Shown here in pieces: positions 12,556 through 27,086 of a stretch of 64,000 nt of DNA. The position numbers and the translations under genes are program-made. The notes beneath the pieces are model-generated. The model searched no databases and was not told the DNA's origin. It saw only the letters and a program-made list of their open reading frames with translations. Numbering within the stretch: position 1 is the first letter of the stretch; each line of letters begins with the position of its first letter. This stretch comes from Rhodoplanes tepidamans (GTDB lineage: Bacteria > Pseudomonadota > Alphaproteobacteria > Rhizobiales > Xanthobacteraceae), in NCBI RefSeq assembly GCF_030813915.1, contig NZ_JAUSUJ010000011.1, positions 1 through 64,000 of the forward strand. Direction: 5' to 3'.

Positions 12556-13629
12556 CTATTTCGACTCTCTGGCGTACCCGGCGCGTGACGTCTCGCCGCC
12601 GTCCGCGTCGGCGCGCGTCCTGCGCCAGGCGGCCGGCGACAGGCCGAAGGCGCGCTTGAAGGCGCGGCTGAACGCCTCCTCGGACTCGTAGCCGACCGCG
12701 TGGGCGATCTGCGCCGCGCTCCTCGCCGTCTCGCGCAGCTGGAGCCGGGCGGTCTCCAGCCGGCCGGCGGTGAGATAGCGGATCGGCGGCATGCCGACGA
12801 GGCGGCCGAACCGCTCGACGAAGGCGGTGCGCGACAGGCCCGCCGCCCGGGCGAGCCGGTCGGCCGACCACGGCGCCGCGAGATCGCGGTGGATGAGGGC
12901 GAGGGCGCGGCCGATCTGCGGGTCGGCGAGGCCGCGCAGCAGGCCGGCGTCGGCGGCCCGCGCCGCGGTGGCGTGGCGCATCGCCTCGGCGAGCAGGAGC
13001 TCGGACAGGCGCGACATCACCTCCGACGAGCCGAGCCGGCCGCTCGCGAGCTCGTTCGCGGCGAACCGCACCGAGGCCTCGATGAGGTCGCGCGACGCCG
13101 CCTCGCGGATGTCGACCTTCAGCACCCGCGGCAGCACCGCGGCGAGCGCGACGTGCACGTCCTCGGTGGCGAGGAAGCCGCAGACCATGCGGGTCTCGTC
13201 GCCGCCGCCGCCGTGGTCGATATGGGCGAGGCCGCCGTCCTCGGCCGGCCGGATCAGCGCGCGGGCGCTGACCGGCACGACGTCGGGCGCGCTCGCCATC
13301 ACGTGGACGTCGTTGCGCGGCAGCAGCACGATCTCGCCGGGCCGCACCTCGAGCGGCGGCTCGCCGTCGATGATCAGCGCGAACCGGCCCGACACCGCGA
13401 CGTGATAGGCGACGAGCTGGGCCGGCGCCTTCAGGAACGGCAGGCAGTCCTCCGCCGTCATCCGGGCCGAGATGCTCCACGGCGCCGTGAAGCGCGCGTC
13501 GAGGAACACGCCGCCGACCAGCCGCACCGAACGCAGCAGGTCGGACAGCGGATCGCCACCGGCCGCGGGCCGCTCCGCCGCAGAGGTGTCGGCCGGACGA
13601 TCGGTCGGGTTTTCGGGCCGGCCGGTCAT
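12556..13629 (-). CDS. AraC family transcriptional regulator with cupin domain
   Basis: A 357-residue regulator. Residues about 30-215 form a cupin-like effector domain (SARMTAEDCLPFLKAPAQLVAYHVAVSG region, then VRPGEIVLLPRNDVHVM). The C-terminal 100 residues carry the two HTH motifs of AraC proteins: WSADRLARAAGLSRTAFVERF and ARSAAQIAHAVGYESEEAFSRAFKRAFG with LSPAAWRR. The cupin belongs to the AraC-binding-like group that often regulates small-molecule metabolism or resistance. It is divergent from the LuxR-type gene at 13705. Confidence 0.88.
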   Translation of the reverse strand: MTGRPENPTDRPADTSAAERPAAGGDPLSDLLRSVRLVGGVFLDARFTAPWSISARMTAEDCLPFLKAPAQLVAYHVAVSGRFALIIDGEPPLEVRPGEIVLLPRNDVHVMASAPDVVPVSARALIRPAEDGGLAHIDHGGGGDETRMVCGFLATEDVHVALAAVLPRVLKVDIREAASRDLIEASVRFAANELASGRLGSSEVMSRLSELLLAEAMRHATAARAADAGLLRGLADPQIGRALALIHRDLAAPWSADRLARAAGLSRTAFVERFGRLVGMPPIRYLTAGRLETARLQLRETARSAAQIAHAVGYESEEAFSRAFKRAFGLSPAAWRRTRADADGGETSRAGYARESK

Positions 13630-13704
13630 TCCGCCGGGACTCCGGGGTCGCTATCGATGCAGGTCCGGGGAGGTGCACTGGGGGCGCAAGGACGACACGT
13701 GCGC

Positions 13705-14979
13705 ATGACTGTCTGTCGCTCCGGATCGCCGCACGGTTCTGCCGTGCCGCGGTCTCACGGGTCGGCCGCCGGCCCGGCCGAGGCTCCGATCATAGCCGGT
13801 TTCGCCGGCCCGCTCGACTCCGGTGCGGCACCGCCCGGCCGGTCCGACGCGGCGCTGTCGGATCTGATCGGCGACGTCTACGACGCCGCTCTCGACGACG
13901 GGCTGTGGCCGGGCGTCCTGCACAAGGCGGCCGCCTTCGTCGGCGGCTGCGCGGCCAGCGTCTACTCTAAGGACTCGGTGCATCGCACCGCCGAGATCAC
14001 CCACGGGGTCGGCATCGACGACGCGTTCAAGCGCTCCTATCTCGACGGCTACGTGAAGATCGACCCGACCACGCCGGGCTTCTTCTTCTGCGGCGTCGGC
14101 GAGGTGGTGAACACGCCCGACATCCTGCCCTACGACGAGTTCCTGCAGTCGCGCTTCTACGCCGAATGGGTGGCGCCGCAGGGGCTGGTCGACCAGGTGA
14201 CGACCGTGCTGGAGAAGTCGGCGACGAGCTACGCCGTGTTCAGCGTGTTCCGCCACGCCCGCGACGGCCTCGCCGACGAGGGCGCCCGCCACCGCATGCG
14301 GCTGCTCGCCCCGCATGTCCGCCGCGCCGTGCAGATCGGCCGCACCGTCACGCTCGGCCGTGCCGAGGCCGCGACCTTCGCGGACACGCTCGACAGCCTC
14401 GTGGCGGCGACCTTTCTGGTCGACGCGACGGGCCGCATCGTGCACGCCAACCGGGCCGGCCACGCCATGGTGGCGGAGGGGACGGTGATGCGGGCGGCGC
14501 GCGGCCGCCTCCTCGCCGCCGACGGCGAGTCCGACCGGCTGCTCCAGGGCACACTCGCGGCCGCGGCCGCGGCCGCGGCGGCGGCGGCCGGAGACGGCGG
14601 CGAGGGCGGCGCCAGCCTGCCGCTGCCCGGGCCGGACGACCGGCATCACGTCGCCCATGTGCTGCCGCTGACCGCCGGGGCCCGCCGCCGGGCCGGCGCC
14701 GGCTACGCGGCCACCGCGGCGGTGTTCGTGTGCCGCGCCCGCATCGAGCCGCCGGCGGCGCCCGAGGCGATCGCCCGGCTCTACGGCCTGACGCCGAGCG
14801 AGCTGAAGGTGCTGCTCGCCGTGTTCGAGGCGGGCGGCGTCGCCGACCTCGCCGCCACGCTCGGCATCTCCGAGACGACCGCCAAGACCCATCTGCGCCG
14901 CCTGTTCGAGAAGACCGGGACCCGCCGCCAGGCCGATCTGGTGAAGCTCGTCGCCGGCTTCGCCCCGCCCGGCCGCTGA
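13705..14979 (+). CDS. LuxR family transcriptional regulator
   Basis: A ~424-residue regulator. A conserved N-terminal segment (LSDLIGDVYDAALDDGLWPGVL) opens a sensory region with PAS-like character (VAATFLVDATGRIVHANRAG near residue 240), and the C-terminus holds a LuxR-type HTH (LTPSELKVLLAVFEAGGVADLAATLGISETTAKTHL). An interdomain run of 11 alanines is encoded by a GCGGCC-type repeat at 14556-14590. The start is uncertain: GTG at 13699 with AAGGA upstream and ATG at 13657 are alternatives. The genes that follow encode envelope proteins and could be its targets. Confidence 0.82.
   Translation: MTVCRSGSPHGSAVPRSHGSAAGPAEAPIIAGFAGPLDSGAAPPGRSDAALSDLIGDVYDAALDDGLWPGVLHKAAAFVGGCAASVYSKDSVHRTAEITHGVGIDDAFKRSYLDGYVKIDPTTPGFFFCGVGEVVNTPDILPYDEFLQSRFYAEWVAPQGLVDQVTTVLEKSATSYAVFSVFRHARDGLADEGARHRMRLLAPHVRRAVQIGRTVTLGRAEAATFADTLDSLVAATFLVDATGRIVHANRAGHAMVAEGTVMRAARGRLLAADGESDRLLQGTLAAAAAAAAAAAGDGGEGGASLPLPGPDDRHHVAHVLPLTAGARRRAGAGYAATAAVFVCRARIEPPAAPEAIARLYGLTPSELKVLLAVFEAGGVADLAATLGISETTAKTHLRRLFEKTGTRRQADLVKLVAGFAPPGR
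14556..14590. repeat. GCGGCC/GCG microsatellite in coding sequence
   Basis: About 35 bases of nearly pure GCGGCC then GCG repeats encode an alanine run inside the LuxR-type gene. Slippage in six- or three-base steps would change the linker length without a frameshift. Confidence 0.7.
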
Positions 14980-15091
14980 ACGCGCGTCGGGCCGCGTCGT
15001 CGTCCGTTCGGATGACGCCGCGGCGCTGCCGGTTGGCCATAAGGGCTCCTGCATGGCCGCGGCCCGGCCGCGGCGCAGGGGAGACGAGGCG

Positions 15092-16402
15092 ATGGTGGCG
15101 CGCAGACAAACGCTGGTCCTGGCCGGAGTCGTCGCGGCGGTGGCCTCCGCCGGGCAGGCGGCCGACATGGCGCCGCCGCTCTCGGTGGCGATGGCATCGG
15201 GCGGCTGGGCCGCGACCTTCGCCAGCGAGGCGCGGTGGTTCTCGTGGTCCGGCACCCGCGGCACGCCGACCACGGTGGCGGCGAACGGCGGCGCCGGCAC
15301 GCAGCTCTACGTGCCGGCCGCCCTGCAGCTCGTCGGCCTGCCGGGCGACGATCTCAAGGTCGAGCTGCTCGCCCGCGGCGGCTGGGTGACGGCCCGACAG
15401 TCGACGGTCGGGCTCGCCGGCGAGGTGGCGACCCCGACCGACACGGTCGCGTCCGGCACCTTCACCTAGCTCGGCTGGCGCGGCGTGCAGCCCTTCGTCT
15501 CGCTCGCCGTCAACATCCCGACCGGGCAGTCCGCGCTGTTCGGGACGGCGGCCAACACCCGCATGGATCCCGATCTCGTCGCGCTGTCGAGCTACGGCGA
15601 GGGCTGGAACATCGGCCCGACGCTCGGCGCCAACGTGCCGCTCGGCGAGCACCTCGTCTTCACGGCGAGCGTCGGCGTCACCCGGCGCGGCAAGTTCGAC
15701 CGCGAGAGCCCGCTGACGCCGGCCGATCCGTCTCTGCCGCCGGCGGCGACGCAGTCGGCGACCACGCTCGATCCCGGCGACGTCGGCACCGTGACGGCGG
15801 CGCTCGCCTGGCGCGACCCGCGCTGGTCGGCGAGCCTGCTCGGCTCGATCTCGGAAGAGACCGAGACGGTCCAGAACGGCGTGACGCTCTACCGCGCCGG
15901 GCGTCGCTACCTGGTCGCGGCGACGCTCGGCCATGTCTGGCAGGGCGGCTTCGGCGCGACCACCGTGACGGCGGCGTTCGCGCACGCGCTGCGCAACGAG
16001 GTGCTGTTCCTCGGCGCCTCGGCACTGGTCACCGAGCCGGCGAGCACCAATTCCGACGTCTACCGGATCGGCCTGCAGCACCTCGTGCCGGTCGGGCCGC
16101 TGTGGCTCGGGCCGACCGGCAGCTTTCTCTATCGCGACGACAATTCCTACGACTCGGTGACGCTGCAGTTCGTGCCCGCCAAGCAGCGCTGGACGGCGGG
16201 CGGCATCGCCTACCTCGCCGCCTCCGACAGCGTGACGATCAACGCCCGGATGGAGCACGTCTGGGTGCACGAGAACGCCCGCGACGCGCTCGACGGCAAG
16301 GTGTTCAGCGTGCTCGCCAACGATTTCGTCGCCGGCTCGGCCGTGCCGGTGGTGTCGAGCCGCGGCTGGCAGATCGCCCTCGGCATCAACGCGAAGTTCT
16401 GA
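15092..16402 (+). pseudogene. outer-membrane beta-barrel-like protein interrupted by an amber codon
   Basis: A 437-codon reading frame with a signal peptide (VARRQTLVLAGVVAAVASAGQA, cut before ADMAPP), broken by TAG at 15467-15469 (codon 126). The frame stays the same on both sides and the protein pattern continues: SGTFT, stop, LGWRGVQPFVSLAVNIPTG. The downstream part has alternating polar/hydrophobic strands (NIGPTLGANVPLGEHLVFTASVGV and more) and ends in INAKF, with the terminal Phe of outer-membrane proteins. One base change (TAG to TAC or TAT, Tyr) would restore it. The ribosome site AGGGGAGACG precedes the start. It may be a recent pseudogene, a phase in a population, or an assembly error. 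The exact family is not recognised. Confidence 0.75.
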
Positions 16403-16415
16403 GAGGAGCGGCGGG

Positions 16416-16751
16416 ATGATCACGACGAGATCCGGACAGGGCGGCGCGGTGATGCGCCGCGTGCTGCTGGCGGCGGGGCTGCTCGTGGTCGGCGGGGATC
16501 CGCTCGCCGCGCAGGCGGGCTGCGGCGAAGGCCGCACCGGCAGCGGCGTCTGCGTCGACGCGACGCTCGCCGAGACGGCCCGGCAGGCCGCGATCGTCTT
16601 CGCCCAGCCGAAGATCTCGCAGGCGGCGTTTCCGGTGCTCCCGGTCCTCGACCTGCGCTGGCGTTATCCGCACCAGCTCCTGCCCGATCAGCTCGGGCCG
16701 GCGCCGACCGGAACGCCGCTGCCGCCGCCACCGCCACCGCCGATCCCGTGA
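16416..16751 (+). CDS. small secreted protein with proline-rich tail
   Basis: A 111-residue protein with AGAGGAG before the ATG. After a polar start comes a hydrophobic stretch (VMRRVLLAAGLLVVGG) with a likely signal cleavage near AQA, then two Cys residues (GCGEGRTGSGVCVD), and a tail TGTPLPPPPPPPIP. The next gene ends with a matching TGTPLPPPP motif. It starts 14 bases after the interrupted barrel gene, so the three probably form one transcript. ATG at 16452 is an alternative start. No family is recognised. Confidence 0.6.
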   Translation: MITTRSGQGGAVMRRVLLAAGLLVVGGDPLAAQAGCGEGRTGSGVCVDATLAETARQAAIVFAQPKISQAAFPVLPVLDLRWRYPHQLLPDQLGPAPTGTPLPPPPPPPIP

Positions 16752-16842
16752 CCGCCACCGAGTCCGTATCGGCTCCACGATCCGCACAACGGGTCGCGCG
16801 CGGAACGCGCCGCCCCCGGTCCACCCGACGAGAGGAGCTCCC

Positions 16843-17286
16843 ATGCGAACACCCGTCCTGGCTCTCGCCATCCTCGCCGCGACGCTCGCCATGGGCGGCG
16901 TCGCGGCCGCCAAGAAGATCAATCTCACGGCGACCGTCACCCAGGTCCGGATCGCCTGCTCCAAGGTCGGCGGCCAGTTCGGCGTCCACATGGACGGCGG
17001 GGGCTACGGCTGCGTGAAGGAGAACTGCAACGGCAAGGGCGGCAAGTGCATCATCGCGTGCGACAACAACAACAACTGCGTCGGCACCTATCCTGGCCGT
17101 GCGGTCGCGGGCAATCCCGTCGTCGGTGTCCTGAACGACACCCGGGCGCCGGCCGGGAAGCACGCTCCGCCGGGCGGCGGCATTCTCGACGCCGGCCCCG
17201 GCTTCTCGCCGCAGGCGCCGGCCGCGACCGGCACGCCGCTGCCGCCACCCCCGGCACCGCCGACCGGCGGCGGAGTCATCTACTGA
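16843..17286 (+). CDS. small secreted Cys-rich protein with proline-rich tail
   Basis: A 147-residue protein with a strong ribosome site (GAGAGGAG) and a clear signal peptide (LALAILAATLAMGGVAAA). The mature part has five cysteines in a compact region (IACSKVGGQFGVHMDGGGYGC, ENCNGKGGKC, CDNNNNC) and a low-complexity tail with TGTPLPPPPAPPTGGG. It is probably a periplasmic or surface-exposed protein with disulfides. The tail is shared with the protein at 16416, which suggests a common binding partner or a common localisation role. Confidence 0.68.
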   Translation: MRTPVLALAILAATLAMGGVAAAKKINLTATVTQVRIACSKVGGQFGVHMDGGGYGCVKENCNGKGGKCIIACDNNNNCVGTYPGRAVAGNPVVGVLNDTRAPAGKHAPPGGGILDAGPGFSPQAPAATGTPLPPPPAPPTGGGVIY

Positions 17287-17449
17287 CCCACTGACCGGCG
17301 GCCGTCCGCCGGATCGGGCGGACCCCGTGGCGGGGCATGTCCCGCCGCCTCGTCTCCAGATGCCATCACCCTGTGTCCCGACCGTGCGGGGCGATCGCCT
17401 CGCATGCGGCGCGATCGAGCCCGACGGTCCAACCGAGGAACCACCCCCC

Positions 17450-18265
17450 GTGACCACACTTCTCGTCGTTCCGGACATCCCCGCGATCAAGCAGCGCCAG
17501 CGCGCCGTCTGGGCGGCCGGCGACTACGCCGTGGTCGGCACCACGCTGCAGATCGTCGGCGAGCGCCTGTGCGAGGCCGTCGACCTGCGCGCCGGCGAGC
17601 GCGTGCTCGACGTCGCCGCCGGCAACGGCAACGCGACGCTCGCGGCCGCCCGTCACTTCGCCGACGTGACCTCGGTCGACTATGTCGGTGCGCTGCTCGA
17701 CCGCGGCCGCGAGCGCGCCGTCGCCGAGCGCCTGCCGGTGACGTTCCGGCTCGCAGACGCCGAGTCGCTCCCGTTCCCGGAGGCGAGCTTCGACCTCGTG
17801 CTGTCGACCTTCGGCGTGATGTTCGCGCCGGACCAGGACACGGCGGCCGCCGAGCTGGCCCGCGTCGTGCGGCCGGGCGGGCGCATCGGGCTCGCCTGCT
17901 GGACGCCGGACGGCTTCATCGGCCAGCTCCTCGCGACGCTCGGCCGTTTCGTGCCGCCGCCGCCGGGCCTCAGGTCGCCGACGCTGTGGGGCACCGCGGA
18001 GCGCCTCGACGAGCTGTTCCCCGACGGCCGCATCAGGGCGACCAAGCGTGTCTTCACCTTCCGCTACCGCTCGCCGGACCACTGGATCGACGTGTTCAGG
18101 ACTTATTACGGGCCGGTGTGCCGGGTCTTCGAGATGCTCGAGCCGGCCGCCCGCGCGGCGCTGCGGACCGAGCTGGTCGCGCTGCTGACCGCCATGAACC
18201 GCGCCGGCCCCGGCAGTCTGGTCGTGCCGAGCGAATACCTCGAGGCCGTCGTGGTCGCGTCGTGA
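17450..18265 (+). CDS. class I SAM-dependent methyltransferase
   Basis: A 271-residue methyltransferase of the UbiE/Methyltransf_11 type. Motif I is VLDVAAGNGNATLAAA near residue 49, followed by the acidic SVDY, the LADAESLPFPEASFDLVLS segment (motifs II-III) and VVRPGGRIGLACW. The GTG start is chosen since GAGGA lies before it and the upstream frame is not protein-like. The substrate is unknown. It is followed by a rhodanese gene on the same strand. Confidence 0.87.
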   Translation: MTTLLVVPDIPAIKQRQRAVWAAGDYAVVGTTLQIVGERLCEAVDLRAGERVLDVAAGNGNATLAAARHFADVTSVDYVGALLDRGRERAVAERLPVTFRLADAESLPFPEASFDLVLSTFGVMFAPDQDTAAAELARVVRPGGRIGLACWTPDGFIGQLLATLGRFVPPPPGLRSPTLWGTAERLDELFPDGRIRATKRVFTFRYRSPDHWIDVFRTYYGPVCRVFEMLEPAARAALRTELVALLTAMNRAGPGSLVVPSEYLEAVVVAS

Positions 18266-18360
18266 CGTGCCGGCTCCGTCTCCGATCCGGCGTTGCGCTG
18301 CGGCGCGCGGACGGCTACAGGCTCTCGAATATCACCCCCACCGGAACGATGGAGTGCGGA

Positions 18361-18774: not shown

Positions 18775-19521
18775 TCAGTCGAGCAGCCACCGGAAGGACC
18801 GGCGGAGCCGCGCCGCTCCGTCGCGATCGAACCAGCGCCCGTGCGCGAAGATCACGCGCGCGGGCTCCCAGGCCGCGATCTCGCGGGCCGCGGCCTGCGC
18901 CGCGGGCCGGCGCCGGTTGATGGCGAAGCGCAGATGGGCCGGGGCGCGGCCGTCCGGCGCCGTCGCTCCGGCGAGCCGCAGCAGCGGCCGGGCGATCGGC
19001 CCGATCTTCTCCGGCTCGAGATTCTCGATCAGGTCGGTCAACACCAGAGTGCGGCTCGGGACGTGGAGGAACGCCACCTCGGTCACCCCGAACCCGCCCG
19101 GGACGACGCGCTGCTCGATCTCGCCGGCCCAGGCCGCCGGCGCCGCCGGGCCGAGGTCGTGGTCGAGCCGCACGCCCGAAGTCTTCACGGGCGTTCGCGC
19201 GCGAAGACCCGGCGCCGCCCAGGTCGTCGCGTCCGGGCAGGCGGTGCGCCAGTCCTTCAGGAACGACCAGTGCGCGACGTTGGGCGCCACCAAGTGGCGG
19301 ATCGGCCCGATCGCCTCGATCGCCCGCTGCAGGCCCGGATCGTGCCGGGTCGGCGAGTGCAGCCAGACCTCGCCGCCGCGCAGGCGGACCACGGTCATCC
19401 GCACCGGCAGGGCGAGCCCCATCGCGTGCAGCGGACCGCTGTCGACGATCCACACGTCGTCCGCCACCGGCTTCAGGGTGTCGAGCGGCGGATAGACGGC
19501 GCGATGCGGCTCGTCGGACAC
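18775..19521 (-). CDS. DUF4336 domain-containing protein
   Basis: A 248-residue protein with the hallmarks of DUF4336: VWIVDSGPLHAMGLALPVRMTVVRL, LWLHSPT-type VWLHSPTRHD, HLVAPNVAHWSFLKDW and DLIENLEP. The fold is related to metallo-beta-lactamases, but the usual HxHxDH is absent, so metal-dependent hydrolysis is doubtful. The function of the family is unknown. It is convergent with the rhodanese gene. Confidence 0.85.
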   Translation of the reverse strand: MSDEPHRAVYPPLDTLKPVADDVWIVDSGPLHAMGLALPVRMTVVRLRGGEVWLHSPTRHDPGLQRAIEAIGPIRHLVAPNVAHWSFLKDWRTACPDATTWAAPGLRARTPVKTSGVRLDHDLGPAAPAAWAGEIEQRVVPGGFGVTEVAFLHVPSRTLVLTDLIENLEPEKIGPIARPLLRLAGATAPDGRAPAHLRFAINRRRPAAQAAAREIAAWEPARVIFAHGRWFDRDGAARLRRSFRWLLD

Positions 19522-19645
19522 TCAACCTCCGAGTGATTGTCCAGGCGTGCGGACGCCGACCGGCGTCGCCCCCGCGTTCCGGGGTCAACCGACTCCGGAG
19601 AACGGGGTTCCAGGGACAAAGGGAGCAGACCTTGTCCGCTCCATT

Positions 19646-21871
19646 TCACCGTCTACGCGTGGCCGCGTTCTGAATGACCGTGCCCATGAGCTGCAGCATC
19701 ATCTGCTGCTGTTGAAGCTGGACCTCGCGAGCTTTCGTCGCCTGCTCCTCTTTTGCGACCTCCTGCTGGTAGCATAGGGACGCGCCGGAATGGCCCAATT
19801 CGGCCGCGCGACGACACAGCTCGATCTTGGTTTCGGCGGGGCTGCCCGGCACGACGTGGCCCCGGTCCACCATCTCGGCGAGGCTCACCATCGAATCAGC
19901 GTCGTTCAGTTGCGCGCCGGTCCTGAACATGGCGACGGCCTGGACCGGATCCTTACGGTCCATGTAGTACATCCAGCCTAGATTGTCGAAGGATGCGGGG
20001 TAGCGTCGGCTGGTCAGCTCCTGATGGAGTTGTAACGCACGTGGCCGGTCGGTCCATTGCAGAGCCCGCGCGAGCTGGTACTTGAACCGAAGCTGTTGCG
20101 GGTTTTGTCGCATTGCGATCTCGCAGTATTGGATCGCCTCCGTCGCTTGGCCTTTCAGAACCCCGAATCCGACGCCCTCCCCGACCTTGTTGCGGTCGTT
20201 CGGATTCGCTGCCAGCGAATCGCACATCCGTTCGGCCTCGGATGCTCGGGTCGCCTGCTCCTCCCGTTCACGCCGTTCTTGCTCCTTCTTGCGCTCGAGC
20301 TCCCTGCGAGCAGCAGCATCGCGCTCCTCGCGTTCCCGCCGCTCTCTGTCGATCTGCTCCTGCTGTCGGAGGAGCGCCTCTTTCTTGGCGGCGATCTCCG
20401 ATTCGTAGGCTCGGGCCTCATCGCGGGTGAACTGTTTCAGTGCATCACCGTTGCGTGGGTGGAAACCGGGCCCATCGAAGAACTCGTAGTCGGCTTCCGC
20501 CTTGCGCCAGAACCACAGACGTGGCTGTCCGGTCAATGGATCGAACAGGATCACATTGCTGGAAAAGGTAATTCGATTCGGCACCTTCGGAACCGACGAT
20601 TGTTGCGATTGCCAGTCTCGAGCGATGTCTTTCGTGATCGGCGTCAGCTCCTCTCCGGTCTGAGGATGGAAGCCCATCAGATCGAAAAGCTCGATGTGGC
20701 CCTTCTCGTCTTTGAAGTACCAGACGATCGGCTCACCGGTTCTGAGATCGAAGAACATCGGATCGGGAGACTGGATACGGCGGGGGCGGTTCCCCTTCTT
20801 GTACTCTTCCAACCGCTCGACGACCTCCGCCGTGAGGAGGCGGCAAAGACGGCCTGTCTGCGGCTCGATCTCTCCCGGCCGGTTCCAGTACTTCACCACG
20901 TTCGCCGTATCCCGGGTGATCACGTAACAGCGAGAGCTGTCAGCCTGCTGCTTGTGTGCGCGCCATTCCTTCTGAACGTCGAGATCGACAGGGTTCAGCG
21001 CCTCTCCGGTCTCCGGGCTGAATCCCGCGCGGTCGTAAAAGACGAATCCCCCACCCGCCGCCCGCGCGTACCAGAGGCGCGGCTTTCCCGTCATGCTGTC
21101 GAAGAAGTCGCCTTCGGTCGGATTGTCCAGACGACGTGGAGGCTGGCGGTCGAACTGGGCTCGCCACGCGAGGGGAACGTCTCGATCGACGGGCTGTAAC
21201 TCCTGGCCGTCGGGATGGAAGCCCATCAGGTCGAAAAGCTCGATCGTCCCCTCACGCGTACGGATGTACCAGACGATGGCTTCGCCGGTGAGTGGATCGA
21301 AGAACTCGGGGTCGCGCATGGTCAAGCGGACTGGGCGGCGCCCGTTCTTATAGTCCTGAAGTTGCCTGAGCCGTTCGGCCGTGACCGGGCGACATGGGCG
21401 GCCCGTCTGCTGGTCGATCGTTCCGGGCCGATTCCCGTATCTCACGGGTTCGGCGGGATCTCGGGTCAGAACATAGCATCGTGTCGCGGTCCCCTCCGGA
21501 GTGAAGAAGTTCATCCGCCACGCATAGGCCAGGAGAAGCGATACCCCGACCGACAAGCCGAGAAGCCCTAGTCGCCCCAGTCGGCGCTTCAGCGGCGAGA
21601 AAGAGAAGCACAGTGTGGTCAGGGTCGTCGCCGCAGCGACGACGACGAGAAAGATAGCCTGGGCAAGGTATTCGTCGAGATCGAAGGCTCGCGCGATGTC
21701 GTCGATCCAACCTCGGACCTGGAGGGACCAATACAGGTTCGTTCCTTGGAAGATGAGAAACGCGAAAAGCCCGACGATCAGCACGATCAGCGCGACCATG
21801 ACCGGAAGTGATATCCGGATAGAGGCGACGCTGTTCCATGCACGTCGGATCAAATCAAAAAGGCCGATCAT
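19646..21871 (-). CDS. large membrane protein with duplicated unknown module, coiled coil and Sel1/TPR-like repeats
   Basis: A 741-residue protein of unrecognised family. Residues 20-42, 70-90 and 101-118 are membrane segments. Residues 131-308 and 314-487 are two copies of one module. Each begins CYV-TRD, NRPG-I--QTGR-CR, continues with FFD--TGE-IVWY and GHIELFDLMGFHP-like text, then repeats a shorter FD--TG-PRLWY block ending in GF-P--G-AL. Residues 490-545 are a charged coiled coil; residues 570-705 look like Sel1/TPR repeats (RALQLHQELTSRRYPASFDNLGWMYY; AAELGHSGASLCY). The gene is lower in GC than its neighbours and has an AT-rich upstream region, suggesting transfer. The architecture suggests a membrane-anchored scaffold or sensor. 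No enzyme motif is visible. Confidence 0.8.
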   Translation of the reverse strand: MIGLFDLIRRAWNSVASIRISLPVMVALIVLIVGLFAFLIFQGTNLYWSLQVRGWIDDIARAFDLDEYLAQAIFLVVVAAATTLTTLCFSFSPLKRRLGRLGLLGLSVGVSLLLAYAWRMNFFTPEGTATRCYVLTRDPAEPVRYGNRPGTIDQQTGRPCRPVTAERLRQLQDYKNGRRPVRLTMRDPEFFDPLTGEAIVWYIRTREGTIELFDLMGFHPDGQELQPVDRDVPLAWRAQFDRQPPRRLDNPTEGDFFDSMTGKPRLWYARAAGGGFVFYDRAGFSPETGEALNPVDLDVQKEWRAHKQQADSSRCYVITRDTANVVKYWNRPGEIEPQTGRLCRLLTAEVVERLEEYKKGNRPRRIQSPDPMFFDLRTGEPIVWYFKDEKGHIELFDLMGFHPQTGEELTPITKDIARDWQSQQSSVPKVPNRITFSSNVILFDPLTGQPRLWFWRKAEADYEFFDGPGFHPRNGDALKQFTRDEARAYESEIAAKKEALLRQQEQIDRERREREERDAAARRELERKKEQERREREEQATRASEAERMCDSLAANPNDRNKVGEGVGFGVLKGQATEAIQYCEIAMRQNPQQLRFKYQLARALQWTDRPRALQLHQELTSRRYPASFDNLGWMYYMDRKDPVQAVAMFRTGAQLNDADSMVSLAEMVDRGHVVPGSPAETKIELCRRAAELGHSGASLCYQQEVAKEEQATKAREVQLQQQQMMLQLMGTVIQNAATRRR

Positions 21872-22049
21872 GGCACCGCCAAATGTGAAGCCGCGACAGT
21901 CGATTGGGTCGGATGAGCCGACGACGTATCCTGCCGTGTTGCTCGGCCTTCCTTCAAGTCATGGAAAATGCGTGCAGTCGAGGAAGGCTTTTCTATTATT
22001 CGTTATTTGTCGCCCTTATGCCTATCGACATTCTTGTCGACAGTCGAAT
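21872..22049. other. AT-rich upstream region with a 10-bp direct repeat
   Basis: This gap is markedly AT-rich between 21960 and 22050 and must hold the promoter of the leftward 741-residue gene (TAATAG-like boxes in minus orientation). CGACAGTCGA occurs at 21894-21903 and again at 22038-22047, immediately before the histidine kinase stop codon. Confidence 0.5.
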
Positions 22050-23462
22050 TCAATCTGGGACGGTTTCGAACACCGGCAGGCGCACGGTGGCGCGCAGGCC
22101 GCCGCCGGGGGCGTCGGCGAGGGTCAGGGTGCCGCCGTGCTGGGTGGCGACGCCGTTGGCGATGGCGAGGCCGAGGCCGGCGCCGCCGGTCGCCCGGTTG
22201 CGCGAGGCGTCGGCGCGGGCGAAGGGCTCCAGCATCGCGGCGCGGTCCTGTTCCGGAATGCCGGGGCCGTCGTCGTCGACCGTGACGATCAGCATCGCCG
22301 CCATGTCTCCGCCGCGCGGCGCCACGGTCGCGGCGATGCGGGCGACGCGGCCGTAGCGCAGGGCGTTGTCGACGAGATTCGCGAACAGCCTCCGCAGCGC
22401 GATGGCGTCGCCCAGGACCTCGGCCGCGGCCGCCTCCGGCGCGACCGTGAGGGAGACGGGCGGCGCCGCATCGGCGCCGTCGGCCGCCTTCGGCGTGCGG
22501 TCCGCGACCTCGCGGGCGAGCAGCGGCGCCACCGCGACCAGCTCCTCGTTCACCATCGGCGCGCCGGTGCGGCTGGCGAGCAGCGAATCGTCGAGCAGGC
22601 GGCTCATCTCGTCGAGATCGGCGACGGTGCGGGCGCGCTCCTGCGCGTCGGGAATGAGGTCGGCGCGCAGCCGCAGGCGCGTCACATAGGTGCGCAGGTC
22701 GTGCGAGATGCCGCCCATCAGCGCCATGCGGGCGCGCAGGAGGTCGGCGATGCGCCCGGTGAACCGGTTGAAGGCGCCGATCAGGGCGCGGATCTCCGGC
22801 GCGTTCGTCGCCCGGTCGGGGATCGGCGGCGCCGCGGTGCCGAGCGGCACGCGGTCGACCGCGGCGGCGAGCTCGCGCAGCGGCCGCGCCTCGCGGCGCA
22901 GCAGAAACAGCGCGAGGCCGGCGACCCCGAGGCCGAGCAGGCCGGCCCAGAAGCCGGGCGGCAGGCCGGCGATCGACAGCGCCAGGACGCCGCCGGCGCT
23001 CACCACCAGGGTCTCGCCGCCCTCCAGGCCGATCTCGATCTCGATGGTGCCGGGCGACACCCAGGCGAGCAGGCGGAGCGGGCCGACCAGGACCTCGCTC
23101 GACGGCTCGACCCGCACCCGCACCGGCCGGTCGCCGAGCCGGCCGAGATAGCGGCGCAGGATGAAGTCGACGAGCGGCGCCTCGTACCAGTCGGGCTCGC
23201 GCCCGTCCGGCCGGCGCTCGACGATGCGGACGGAGAGATCGACGCTGTTGGCGGCGCGCAGCACTTTCGGCCAGTCGGATCGCGGCAGGTCGTCGAGCAG
23301 CTCGGCGAGCGCCGCCGCCTGGTCGGGCAGCGGCAGGCGCAGCGCGCTGTCGGTGGCGCGGCTGCGCTGGAGCACGAAGGCGACGACGGCGAGGAGCTGC
23401 AGCGCCACCAGGCTGCCGACGAAGATCGCGACCAGGCGGGCGCCGAAGCCGAGACGCATCAT
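22050..23462 (-). CDS. sensor histidine kinase (EnvZ/OmpR type)
   Basis: A 470-residue inner-membrane kinase. A first membrane helix (residues 8-32) and a second (about 171-190) flank a periplasmic domain of about 135 residues. HAMP follows, then the H-box GGISHDLRTYVTRLRLRAD with the phospho-acceptor His at 254; the usual Pro after RT is Tyr here. The ATPase domain has the N-box NLVDNALRYG, and G-boxes DDDGPGIP and GGAGLGLAI. The gene lies downstream of the response regulator on the same strand with a 43-base gap. Periplasmic signal unknown. Confidence 0.92.
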   Translation of the reverse strand: MMRLGFGARLVAIFVGSLVALQLLAVVAFVLQRSRATDSALRLPLPDQAAALAELLDDLPRSDWPKVLRAANSVDLSVRIVERRPDGREPDWYEAPLVDFILRRYLGRLGDRPVRVRVEPSSEVLVGPLRLLAWVSPGTIEIEIGLEGGETLVVSAGGVLALSIAGLPPGFWAGLLGLGVAGLALFLLRREARPLRELAAAVDRVPLGTAAPPIPDRATNAPEIRALIGAFNRFTGRIADLLRARMALMGGISHDLRTYVTRLRLRADLIPDAQERARTVADLDEMSRLLDDSLLASRTGAPMVNEELVAVAPLLAREVADRTPKAADGADAAPPVSLTVAPEAAAAEVLGDAIALRRLFANLVDNALRYGRVARIAATVAPRGGDMAAMLIVTVDDDGPGIPEQDRAAMLEPFARADASRNRATGGAGLGLAIANGVATQHGGTLTLADAPGGGLRATVRLPVFETVPD

Positions 23463-23505
23463 GGCGGGGCTTTCCGCATGCTCGTCGTGGCTGCGCGGTT
23501 CGTGA

Positions 23506-24222
23506 TCACGTCAGCTGCTTCACGGGGGCGACGAACAGATAGCCGGTGTTGCGCACCGTGGTGATCAGGGTGGTGCCGGGCGCCGCCTGGTCGATCTTCC
23601 GGCGCAGGCGCGAGATGGTCATGTCGATGGTGCGGTCGAACGGCTCGGCGTCGCGCCCGCGCGTCCAGTCGAGCAGCTGGTCGCGCGACAGCACGCGGCG
23701 CGGCCGCTGGACGAAGCAGGCGAGCAGGTCGAACTCGGCGCTGGTGAGCGGCACCGGCGCGCCGTCGCTGGTCTCCAGCTGGCGGGCGTCGAGATCGACG
23801 ACGAAGCCCTCGAAGGCGTAGCGGCGGCTCGCCGCCGCCTCCGGCATGCCCCGGGTGCGCCGCAGGACCGCGCGCACCCGCGCCACCAGCTCGCGCGGCT
23901 CGAACGGCTTCACCAGATAGTCGTCGGCACCGAGCTCGAGCCCGACCACCCGGTCGATGGCGTCGCCCTTGGCGGTGAGCATCAGGATCGGGAGCGCGCT
24001 CCGCGCCCGCAGCCGCCGGCAGATCGACAGGCCGTCCTCGCCCGGCAGCATCAGATCGAGGATCACCAGATCGGGCGTCTCGCGCGCCAGGAGGGCGTCG
24101 AGGTCCGCCCCGCCGGCGGCCGGTGCCACCGCGAATCCCTCCTGCACGAGAAGGCCCGCGACGAGGCGGCGGATCTCGTCGTCGTCCTCGACGATGGCGA
24201 TCAGGGCGTCGGACCGGACCAT
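23506..24222 (-). CDS. OmpR family response regulator
   Basis: A 238-residue regulator. The receiver domain has the acidic EDDDE near residue 12, the phospho-acceptor Asp in LVILDLMLPGEDG at residue 56, and LTAKGD and DYLVKPFEPREL with the conserved Thr and Lys. The C-terminal winged helix (LTSAEFDLLACFVQRPRRVLSRDQLL, then TIDMTISRLRRKI) is of the OmpR/PhoB type. The start at 24222 is preferred to an upstream frame extension, since MVRSDALIAIVEDD is the normal beginning. It forms a pair with the kinase. A small Cys-containing secreted protein is encoded divergently. Confidence 0.93.
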   Translation of the reverse strand: MVRSDALIAIVEDDDEIRRLVAGLLVQEGFAVAPAAGGADLDALLARETPDLVILDLMLPGEDGLSICRRLRARSALPILMLTAKGDAIDRVVGLELGADDYLVKPFEPRELVARVRAVLRRTRGMPEAAASRRYAFEGFVVDLDARQLETSDGAPVPLTSAEFDLLACFVQRPRRVLSRDQLLDWTRGRDAEPFDRTIDMTISRLRRKIDQAAPGTTLITTVRNTGYLFVAPVKQLT

Positions 24223-24418
24223 GCGGCCTTCATAGGCGGGGGAGGGCGCTGCGGACAAGCCTCGGCGGGCCCTCGTTACCAACCGTTACGCGCCGTGACC
24301 AAACGGCGAGAACCGTGACCCGCACGGCACATCCCGGCGACCGGCCGCCCCGAGGATGCGCCGGATCGAAAACGACGGGGCCGGTCCCGCGAGCCGGCCC
24401 CGCATCCGGAGGAGACCC

Positions 24419-24688
24419 ATGCGCAAGCTCCGCCTCGCCTCGACCGTCCTGGTGCTGCTCGGCGGCCTCGGCGCCGCCGCCCAGGCGTTTCCGGCGCCGC
24501 CACCGCCGGCGACCCCGGCCGACGCCGTCGTCCGGGTGCACGGCTGCCACCGCTCCTGCGAGTGGGGCCCCGGGCGCGGCTGGCACCGGCACGGCGCCCT
24601 GTGCACGCCGATCGCCTGCGCTCCGCGGGCCGTCTATCCGGGCCGCTGCTGGGTCGACCGCTTCGGCGTCCGCCGCTGCCGGTGGTGA
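24419..24688 (+). CDS. small secreted Cys/His-rich protein (GCG_CRPN-like)
   Basis: An 89-residue protein with GGAGGAG before the ATG and a signal peptide (RLASTVLVLLGGLGAAAQA). The mature protein has the pattern VHGCHRSCEWGPGRGWHRHGALC, then CAPRAVYPGRCW, ending RRCRW. The layout resembles the short GCG_CRPN-type secreted proteins of Methylobacterium relatives, whose role is unknown. It is divergent from the response regulator gene and could be a target of that system. Confidence 0.62.
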   Translation: MRKLRLASTVLVLLGGLGAAAQAFPAPPPPATPADAVVRVHGCHRSCEWGPGRGWHRHGALCTPIACAPRAVYPGRCWVDRFGVRRCRW

Positions 24689-24691
24689 GGA

Positions 24692-24758
24692 CTTCCGCGC
24701 CTCGGGGCGCGGAAGCGGGTGAGGGGACGTTCCCGTAGTCCCTGCGTCCCCTCACCCG
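24692..24758. terminator. two tandem perfect hairpins
   Basis: CTTCCGCGCC-TCGG-GGCGCGGAAG (10-bp stem, 24692-24715) abuts a 14-bp perfect stem CGGGTGAGGGGACG (24716-24729) paired with 24745-24758 across a 15-base loop. The first begins three bases after the stop of the small secreted protein and probably ends its transcript. The second has the GGGTGAGGGG core of repeat family B. Confidence 0.6.
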
Positions 24759-24876
24759 TCTTCTGTCCGACCGGTCGCCGGCGTCGCGGCGCGCGAGCGT
24801 GCAGGCCGCCGCTTCGCCGCCGGCCGGAATGCGTTATGACGGAACGGGTCCGCCGTTCCACGAGGTTTTCGGTTCC

Positions 24877-25305
24877 ATGCGCCGCACGGCCGTCATCATG
24901 GCGCTCGCGATGCTGCTCGCGGCGGCCGCCGGACCGGCGGCCGCACAGTCACCGCTGCGGGTGCAGGGCCCGCTGCGCGTGCAGGCGCGCGGCGTGATCG
25001 CCGCCTGCGCGGCCGACTACCGGGCGCTCTGCCCGGGCGTGGCGCCGGGCGGCGGCCGCATCGTCGCCTGCCTCAACGCCCAGGCCGAGAAGCTGTCGCA
25101 GCGCTGCTTCCAGGCACTCGCCGCGGAAGGCCTCGCCTTCGCGGCGGCGCTGCGGCTGTGCCGGGCCGACGTCGAGCGTCTCTGCGCCGGCACCCCGCTC
25201 GGCGGCGGCCGTGCCATCTCCTGCCTGCTGGGCAGCCGCGACCGCCTCTCGGCCGGCTGCCGCGACGCCCTGTCGGCGCACGGCTTCGAGGGGGAGGCGG
25301 ACTAG
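24877..25305 (+). CDS. secreted cysteine-rich repeat protein (GLG1-like repeat)
   Basis: A 142-residue protein with a signal peptide (AVIMALAMLLAAAAGPAAA). The mature part holds two cysteine-rich repeats of the type first described in Golgi apparatus protein 1: C-ADYRALCPGVAPGGGRIVACL...QRC and C-ADVERLCAGTPLGGGRAISCL...AGC. Each has four cysteines with the spacing C-x7-C-x12-C. The bacterial members are of unknown function. The start at 24877 is supported by GAGG upstream and by the signal peptide. Confidence 0.78.
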   Translation: MRRTAVIMALAMLLAAAAGPAAAQSPLRVQGPLRVQARGVIAACAADYRALCPGVAPGGGRIVACLNAQAEKLSQRCFQALAAEGLAFAAALRLCRADVERLCAGTPLGGGRAISCLLGSRDRLSAGCRDALSAHGFEGEAD

Positions 25306-25679
25306 AGAGGCCGGCGTTGCCGCGGCTCCGGGCGCGACGCCACATAGGCGGCGCAGGCGAGCAGCCCGGCCGCGACCGCCGCGGCCAGCAGCGGCCCCGG
25401 GCCGGCGCTCGCCCAGAACACGACGAAGCCCGCCGTCATCCCGGTGCAGGCCAGCACCTTGGAGCGGCGCGAGATCGCCCGGTCGTCGCGCCACGCCCGC
25501 AGCGACGCACCGAAGCGCGGATGGTCGAACAGCCACGCCTCCAGCCGCGGCGACGACCGCGCGAAGCACCACGCCGCCGCGATCAGGAAGATGGTGGTCG
25601 GCAGCAGCGGCAGCACGGCGCCGATCAGGCCGATCACCAGCATCAGGCAGCCGAGGCCGAAATAGAACGCGCGCGTCAT
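25302..25679 (-). CDS. YbaN family inner-membrane protein (DUF454)
   Basis: A 125-residue protein with three or four hydrophobic segments. The start FYFGLGCLMLVIGLIGAVLPLLPTTIFLIAAAWCFARSSPR is diagnostic for the DUF454/YbaN family, followed by HPRFG and the basic loop DRAISRRSKVLA. Its molecular role is not established. It overlaps the 3' end of the convergent cysteine-rich-repeat gene by four bases. Confidence 0.9.
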   Translation of the reverse strand: MTRAFYFGLGCLMLVIGLIGAVLPLLPTTIFLIAAAWCFARSSPRLEAWLFDHPRFGASLRAWRDDRAISRRSKVLACTGMTAGFVVFWASAGPGPLLAAAVAAGLLACAAYVASRPEPRQRRPL

Positions 25680-25796: not shown

Positions 25797-27086
25797 TCAC
25801 CCGTAGCGGCGCTGCGCCTCGATGGTGAGGCCGAGGCCGACGGCGCCGAAGCGGTCGCCGTCGACGACGGCGGCCTCCGGCAGCACGGCGCGCACGGCGG
25901 CCCGCACGCTCGGCACCAGGCTGCCGCCGCCGGTGAAGAACACGGCGTCGATCGCCTCGGCGGCGAGGCCGGCGGCCGCGATCGTCTCGCGGACGGTGTT
26001 GCGCAGGCGCTCCCCGAGCGGCACCGTCGCGGCCTCGAACTGCGGCCGCGTCGCCGCCGGGTGGAGACCCTTCTCCAGCCAGTCGAGCGGGATCGTCGTC
26101 TCCTCCGCGTCGGAGAGCGCGATCTTGCCGCGCTCCACCTCGATCAGCACCGAATGGCCGCGCCGCATCTCGATCAGGTGGATGAGCCGGGCGAGCAGCT
26201 TCGGCTCGCGCGCCTCGCGCCGGACCAGCTTCAGCTCCGGCAGCACCGCCTTGTCGTAGAGGCGGTTCACGGTCGCCCAGGTGGCGAGGTCGAAATAGGG
26301 GCCGGACGGCACCTCGACGTCGCCGCGGGTCATCAGGGTGCGGAAGCCGAGCGCCGGCATCACGGCGGCGAGCGCCAGCGCGCGGTCGTAGTCGGTGCCG
26401 CCGAGCCGGGTGCCGCCGCTCGCGAGGATGTCGCGCTTGCGCTCGTCGCGGCCGCGCCGGTCGGGCCCGAGCCGCACCACCGAGAAGTCCGAGGTGCCGC
26501 CGCCGATGTCGGCGACCAGCGCCAGCGTCTCGGCCGCGACGCTGCGCTCGTAGTCGAACGCCGCCGCCACCGGCTCGTACTGGAACGACACCTCGGAGAA
26601 GCCGGCCTGGCGGGCGATGTCGGCGAGCGTCGCCTCGGCGCGGCTGTCGGCCGCCGCGTCGCCGTCGACGAAGTGCACCGGGCGGCCGTGGACGACGCGG
26701 TCGAGCGGGCAGCCGGACTGCGCCTCGGCCCGGTGCTTCAGCGTCTCGACATAGGTGCGCACGATCTCCCGGAAGGCGACGCGCCGGCGCAGCAGCTGGG
26801 TCTTCTCGTCGATCAGCGGCGTGCCGAGGATCGACTTCAGCGACCGCATGAAGCGGCCCTGGACGCCGTCCACATAGGCGGCGATCGCGTCGCGGCCGAT
26901 CAGGACGTGGTGGGCGTGGTCGAGCCCGAAGAACACGGCGCTCGGCACCGTGGTGCTGCCGTGATCGAGGGCGAGCAGCGCCGGCGCGTCCGCCCCCGCC
27001 ACGCCGAGCGTCGAGTTCGAGGTGCCGAAGTCGAGCCCGCAGGCGCGGCCGTTCGGCGCGCGAAGGCGCGATGAGGATGAGGGCAT
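25797..27086 (-). CDS. Hsp70-family protein, YegD-like
   Basis: A 429-residue actin-like ATPase of the Hsp70 superfamily, lacking the substrate-binding domain of DnaK. It has the phosphate-1 loop CGLDFGTSNSTLGVA, the EPVAAAFDYE connect segment, the phosphate-2 loop VADIGGGTSDFSVV and the adenosine motif FFTGGGSLVPSVRAAV. This matches E. coli YegD, a putative chaperone with unknown clients. The gene stands between YbaN-like and SRAP genes on the same strand. Confidence 0.88.
   Translation of the reverse strand: MPSSSSRLRAPNGRACGLDFGTSNSTLGVAGADAPALLALDHGSTTVPSAVFFGLDHAHHVLIGRDAIAAYVDGVQGRFMRSLKSILGTPLIDEKTQLLRRRVAFREIVRTYVETLKHRAEAQSGCPLDRVVHGRPVHFVDGDAAADSRAEATLADIARQAGFSEVSFQYEPVAAAFDYERSVAAETLALVADIGGGTSDFSVVRLGPDRRGRDERKRDILASGGTRLGGTDYDRALALAAVMPALGFRTLMTRGDVEVPSGPYFDLATWATVNRLYDKAVLPELKLVRREAREPKLLARLIHLIEMRRGHSVLIEVERGKIALSDAEETTIPLDWLEKGLHPAATRPQFEAATVPLGERLRNTVRETIAAAGLAAEAIDAVFFTGGGSLVPSVRAAVRAVLPEAAVVDGDRFGAVGLGLTIEAQRRYG

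Follow-up and report, generated by a model that had tools for sequence, protein, structure and literature searches.

In a survey of prokaryotic metacaspases, Sel1 repeats are present in 6.0% of the sequences, and the passages of the survey compared here describe metacaspases with Sel1/TPR repeats and membrane helices (PMC3501461). The EACC1/caspase system is described as a membrane-associated conflict system in which, near the membrane, a caspase is combined with any of many different C-terminal parts (PMC7159879). ExoR, a Sel1-like protein, binds ExoS and in this way regulates ExoS-ChvI (PMC7327166). This study was concerned with a gene of Rhodoplanes tepidamans at 19646..21871 on the minus strand of contig NZ_JAUSUJ010000011.1 (assembly GCF_030813915.1), positions 1 to 64,000 of which are referred to as the window. 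The gene is an open reading frame (ORF) of 741 codons plus a stop, and the plus strand is interrupted by stops in the same interval. A preliminary description, drawn from the sequence alone, had the position and length right; the reading frame lies on the minus strand.

The protein has a C-terminal tail like that of Sel1/TPR proteins such as the Sel1 repeat protein 6ork, whereas its repeat units have no solved sequence relative at E<=1. Three of its relatives (L100, L140 and L141) are of the metacaspase kind with Sel1/TPR repeats and membrane helices, whereas the window protein has no caspase and its repeat is absent from the passages of the survey that were compared (PMC3501461). We read the protein, with a probability of roughly 0.47, as a membrane-anchored periplasmic sensor or scaffold from a family in which exchangeable N-termini are set on a chassis of repeats, coiled coil and solenoid.

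Repeat units and predicted structure

The preliminary description proposed a duplicated module containing four FD..TG units. The duplication is borne out, as the two modules (residues 127-311 and 309-492) are 47% identical over 184 columns, with a score of 437, where 1000 shuffles reach at most 60. The four FD..TG units also resemble each other in all six pairings (scores of 97-170, shuffle maxima of 45-53), and their alignment contains 12 invariant columns. The duplication may be ancestral, as module 1 of the window protein pairs with module 1 of the relative L052 in the module tree (94/90), but trees that keep the two modules of each protein side by side were not rejected (p 0.087 and 0.094).

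A compact repeated fold was found in the AlphaFold2 model of module 2, which was built with nine other rows and has a mean predicted local distance difference test score (pLDDT) of 86.5 and a predicted template modelling score (pTM) of 0.61. The model consists of three consecutive repeats of a hairpin and a helix (E7-10, E18-21, H40-50; E76-79, E85-88, H106-117; E145-148, E154-157, H175-183). The full-length AlphaFold2 model (8 rows, mean pLDDT 80.6, pTM 0.35) has six such repeats, at residues 132-175, 201-241, 267-311, 315-358, 384-426 and from 453 onward. The two models come from one method and overlapping rows and are not independent. Each module is probably made of three structural repeats, which would give six units in the protein: the CYV-TRD...NRPG...QTGR-CR block resembles a third unit of each module that has diverged. 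Thus, the likeness of the four FD..TG units stood, and the total of four probably becomes six in the models.

Modest support for the CYV blocks as extra units is provided by the sequences. With a profile of 29 units, 9 of 14 CYV segments outscore every one of 2800 shuffles (1757 of which were reported), and the two CYV blocks of the window protein itself score below the best shuffle. The CYV block and the FD..TG unit match in profile comparison with a probability of 70% (E 4e-5 for a single comparison). All six units are on the minus strand. Unit 1 (residues 130-178, Cys132/Cys160, 21338..21484) and unit 4 (residues 313-361, Cys315/Cys343, 20789..20935) would be of the diverged CYV type, as judged from the models, profile comparison and cysteines, with unit 1 placed in the module model by alignment to module 2. 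The FD..TG units were delimited by sequence comparison and modelling: unit 2 (residues 185-241, 21149..21319) and unit 3 (residues 251-311, 20939..21121) with one model, and unit 5 (residues 368-426, 20594..20770) and unit 6 (residues 437-491, 20399..20563) with both. The helix of unit 6 continues into the coil.

The FD..TG unit is a real, small repeat that is unmatched in the collections searched. At E<=0.001 the units have no counterpart in Pfam, NCBIfam, PHROG or PDB, the weak PHROG matches over them being 29402 (E 0.089) and 31769 (E 0.2), and the unit profile found nothing among PDB sequences at E<=1. Everywhere but in the tail, the matches to Pfam, NCBIfam and PHROG are weak. Foldseek likewise returned nothing at E<=0.001 for the module against the PDB and the viral models of BFVD. 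The module matches no known domain at E<=0.001. The protein had been called undescribed, and within these searches this applies to its units; its Sel1/TPR tail is of a known type. Matches of phmmer to Son of sevenless over the units (E 0.06 to 0.93) were taken as chance, and a WW-like fold, suggested by eye, was dropped, the Foldseek WW pair standing only at rank 30 with E 3.2. Domain words found no published account of the repeat, coil and Sel1/TPR chassis in the open-licence literature, where a nameless repeat cannot be searched for.

Coiled coil and Sel1/TPR tail

The repeats are followed by a long charged helix, taken as a coiled coil at residues 492-547 (20231..20398, minus strand) from the model helix and its composition. 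It was proposed in the preliminary description and appears in the full-length model as one helix spanning residues 483-554. The tail (residues 548-741, 19649..20230, minus strand) carries the CDxLAANPxD motif and the cysteine pairs Cys550/583 and Cys686/700, and its model shows helices in series, the last at residues 695-740.

The tail is a member of the Sel1/TPR repeat superfamily, of the solenoid type, in line with the earlier suggestion of Sel1/TPR-like repeats. A profile of the last unit, coil and tail (A7) matches 6ork in the PDB with E 2.4e-13 over profile positions 148-260 of 301, and the tail of this profile matches 31 other PDB chains at E<=0.01, of which those named are Sel1 or TPR proteins. 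Single-sequence Pfam matches in the tail are below cut-off. Such tails are found in many genomes. They occur in 60 of 296 genomes of the taxonomic family at E<=1e-12, most of which match at the tail only, and on 9 plasmid records, where the match is confined to the tail and two proteins are annotated as caspase family. Several of the tail-bearing ORFs start caspase-like by eye; of these, L140 and L141 were domain-scanned.

Architectures and distribution of relatives

The relatives form a family in which related chassis parts are joined to varied partners, among them TIR_2, Peptidase_C14 and signal-peptide-like proteins (signal peptides were judged by eye and hydropathy). The architecture of the window protein, with three hydrophobic helices, one or more CYV modules, coil and tail, is shared by 12 intact relatives, so that the family is not confined to degenerate copies; the broken ones are L040, L049, L053 and L102. 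Two full modules were found in the window protein and L052 only, among the relatives read.

In L062, a TIR_2 domain (E 3.3e-21) is followed by a weak helix, two units, coil and tail, and in L100 a signal-peptide-like hydrophobic stretch and Peptidase_C14 (E 2.3e-14) precede one unit, coil and tail. No TIR domain was found in the window protein with Pfam, and it has no C14 match at E<=10, whereas L100 and L140 have one. Other proteins, among them L041, L042, L043 and L044, have a signal-peptide-like start, an unnamed domain, one unit, coil and tail; hydropathy backs this start in L042, L043 and L044, not in L041. The unnamed domain may be FlgT-like, but no domain match supports this. L039 joins a hydrophobic region and units to a different C-terminus, which we take by eye to be NTF2-like, again with no domain match. 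In L061 (5685-7631), in-frame units and the tail follow a weak match to DUF6538 (21.6 bits, where the cut-off is 27); DUF6538 is found at the start of some integrases. In L101 (5169-6536, 456 residues), an N-terminal hydrophobic region, seen by eye, is combined with a diverged unit, and the C-terminus is of another kind.

The same tail also occurs in proteins with no detected units. For example, L140 and L141 consist of a caspase, one helix, coil and tail, and L144 and L145 of a lone helix and tail. In L142 (1764-4211), a type IV secretion system (T4SS) coupling protein (T4SS-DNA_transf E 1.1e-56) continues into a helix and a coil and ends with this TPR tail, and L143 (2524-6279) was assigned to this form by its likeness to L142. 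The NCBIfam model caspase_w_EACC1 matches L100 (4.9e-19), L140 (1.4e-24) and L141 (1.2e-24) at 69-87 bits, under the 140-bit cut-off. The EACC1 partner gene was matched in 0 of 5 genomes, and 14 controls gave no match either.

The distribution is patchy. The window's own genome is part of every genome count, and each count is a minimum, because in many genomes only some of the first-look candidates were scored. The unit profile was found in at least 19 of 391 genomes of the family and, among 6 genomes of the genus, in the window's own only; the module profile was found in at least 8 of 198 family genomes. At wider ranks, a six-row module profile was found in at least 5 of 397 genomes of the order (one doubtful), the four-unit profile in at least 2 of 385 of the class and the unit profile in at least 3 of 200 genomes of the phylum, of which one is doubtful. 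The tallies include two weak matches that were not accepted as members: G693 (E 0.009) and G1170 (E 0.0077), the latter an ORF that resembles an ATPase by eye. The named holders among the matches listed are Rhodopseudomonas infernalis and eight Bradyrhizobium records, with two of the copies broken (L049, L053). An origin as a plasmid or phage gene was also considered and set aside: the unit query from L038 was unmatched in 72,556 plasmid records, and the whole protein was unmatched in 50,697 phage records.

Exchange of N-termini

The tail of the window protein is closest to that of the caspase protein L100, with 56% identity. The two form a pair with support of 93/86 in the tree of last unit and tail (21 rows), 92/85 after removal of the two long rows L040 and L041 (19 rows) and 85/79 for the tail alone. 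A single clade of three-helix forms was rejected by the approximately unbiased (AU) test, with p_AU 7.95e-6 for 21 rows and 1.16e-5 for 19 rows. This grouping had been fixed ahead of the first tree; the remaining two, and the removal of L040 and L041, were chosen once that tree had been seen. A group of three-helix, TIR and DUF6538 forms that excludes the caspase form was rejected (p 0.0009; 0.008 with 19 rows), and a group of three-helix and caspase forms that excludes the TIR/DUF6538 pair was not (p 0.19; 0.47 with 19 rows). Since the window tail is nearest to that of a caspase protein and the three-helix forms do not make up a single clade, a swap between three-helix and caspase N-termini is supported.

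Membrane region and location of the repeats

Three hydrophobic stretches (residues 22-40, 73-91 and 98-116; 21524..21808, minus strand) were taken as membrane helices from hydropathy, loop charges and the model, in agreement with the three helices described previously, the third being barely over the hydropathy threshold (1.66 and 1.6, respectively). Counts of K/R and D/E are 3/0 in the N-terminus, 2/5 in the first loop and 3/0 between the second and third stretches, and these charges speak for repeats outside the cytoplasm.

Such a place is also favoured by paired cysteines. Cys550/583 of the tail is present in 27 of 27 rows, and the cysteine count is even in 21 of 23 proteins. Both Cys686 and Cys700 occur in the window protein and L100, and L038 has a like-spaced pair one column off; this suggests that the two were acquired as a pair. 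A periplasmic location is predicted for repeats, coil and solenoid, with support from these charges and cysteines.

Genome context

The base composition of the gene is unlike that of its neighbours, as had been noted. Its guanine plus cytosine (GC) content is 0.613, compared with 0.712 for the whole window, and its third-codon GC is 0.745, compared with 0.96 and 0.94 for the genes on either side. The matches of window positions 19515 and 25323 lie 187 positions from each other in the sister genome G001 (L156). Thus, 5.8 kb including the gene (19516..25322, with an EnvZ/OmpR-like pair and small ORFs) are extra in the window or were lost in G001, and the location of the gene is accessory. Another segment of about 5.8 kb (window 12576-18358) is absent from G001 between matching flanks.

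The EnvZ/OmpR-like kinase (22050-23462) and regulator (23506-24282) are directly upstream on the same strand. A single 2133-bp stretch of G005 matches both with about 75% DNA identity; the gene was not found near the pair there, in 6 kb fetched from a genome that is 58% complete. Integrase or transposase genes are near four copies (L039, L046, L048 and L062), which were chosen as mobile-looking and give no rate. Other neighbours were noted. An Hsp70-like protein is encoded about 4 kb upstream of the gene (window 25797-27086) and also just before the L050 homologue (L050 4080-5393), which may be chance. A SIR2-like and STAND NTPase protein resembling ThsA models (L047 8810-11212) is about 1.5 kb from a homologue, and a TIR_2 gene (L041 2861-4579) is about 1.5 kb upstream of a single-unit homologue, with two ORFs between.

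Discussion

In the proposed arrangement, the three N-terminal hydrophobic helices would anchor the protein in the inner membrane, and the six hairpin-helix repeats, coiled coil and Sel1/TPR solenoid would lie on the outer, periplasmic side. The same chassis would be joined in relatives to exchangeable N-termini: a multi-helix anchor, a TIR domain, a caspase, or a signal-peptide-like stretch with the unnamed domain. The repeats, the solenoid or both may bind an envelope partner or ligand, and the coil may bring subunits together. The N-terminal part would relay a signal in the TIR or caspase forms, and in the window protein it would hold the complex at the membrane. Ligand binding, oligomerisation and signalling are all predicted from architecture.

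Several observations weigh against this reading. Of the 13 three-helix forms, 9 have a third helix above threshold; in L046, L047, L048 and L103 it is below, and with just two helices the repeats would be inside. The charge directly behind helix 3 is neutral or net positive, which disfavours the outer place. L061 has units and no helix, and the helix of the TIR protein L062 is weak (best 19-residue hydropathy 1.5). The cysteine count is odd in L062, and in L041 once a presumed signal-peptide cysteine is excluded; the tally itself used manual cut points and related rows, with 4 of 27 (L040, L043, L061 and L143) uncounted. Conservation in 13 rows is lower in the membrane region (0.456) than in the modules (0.574) and the tail (0.563). 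The pTM of 0.35 means that the full-length model does not fix the mutual arrangement of the parts. In the trees, the starred branches by themselves are compatible with a single origin of the three-helix form, and the neighbours of the homologues seem unconserved by eye.

The weak conservation of the membrane region would fit a plain envelope scaffold, in which tail and repeats would hold periplasmic proteins of division, polar growth or peptidoglycan in place and take no part in immunity or signalling, and TIR and caspase fusions would be side branches. Such a scaffold seems rather unlikely, as it sits poorly with the patchy distribution in the family and genus and with the segment missing from the sister genome. 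The same low conservation counts against a defence or cell-death effector, in which the three-helix part would replace the TIR or caspase and, once an attack is sensed by the outer part, damage the membrane. That TIR, caspase and three-helix parts share the same N-terminal place on related chassis is consistent with such a role, as are the match of the L100 caspase to the PADLOC caspase model (2.4e-13) and the SIR2-STAND and TIR_2 genes near the L047 and L041 homologues. However, these neighbours were picked by eye and give no rate, and the window protein itself matches 0 PADLOC-DB families at E<=0.1; we consider an effector role quite improbable.

The position of the kinase and response regulator just upstream recalls ExoR and ExoS (PMC7327166, as cited above), and the window protein might be a periplasmic regulator of this pair. 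This appears least probable, and very much so: G005 has the pair and, within the sequence fetched, not the gene, the third-codon GC of the kinase is 0.96 compared with 0.745 for the gene, and by eye no such pair lies beside other copies. A bolder form of the sensor reading is a Toll-like-receptor-like family in Hyphomicrobiales, in which an extracytoplasmic sensor of repeat, coil and Sel1/TPR would have interchangeable cytosolic TIR or caspase outputs, the window protein would be output-less or membrane-acting and the repeat would be a new domain. Drawn from one TIR form with repeats, one probably secreted caspase form with repeats and two membrane caspase forms with no detected units, it is doubtful and, in our judgement, unlikely.

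The membrane-anchored periplasmic sensor or scaffold therefore remains our preferred reading. To our knowledge, most TIR and caspase systems studied sense inside the cell. The FD..TG repeat, unmatched in the collections searched and predicted with good confidence, recurs alongside TIR and caspase domains, both of which serve bacteria in immunity and cell death. Should the repeats act as sensors at the envelope, they would offer a direct route to studying how damage to the envelope, or an attack, is linked in bacteria to an output through TIR or caspase.
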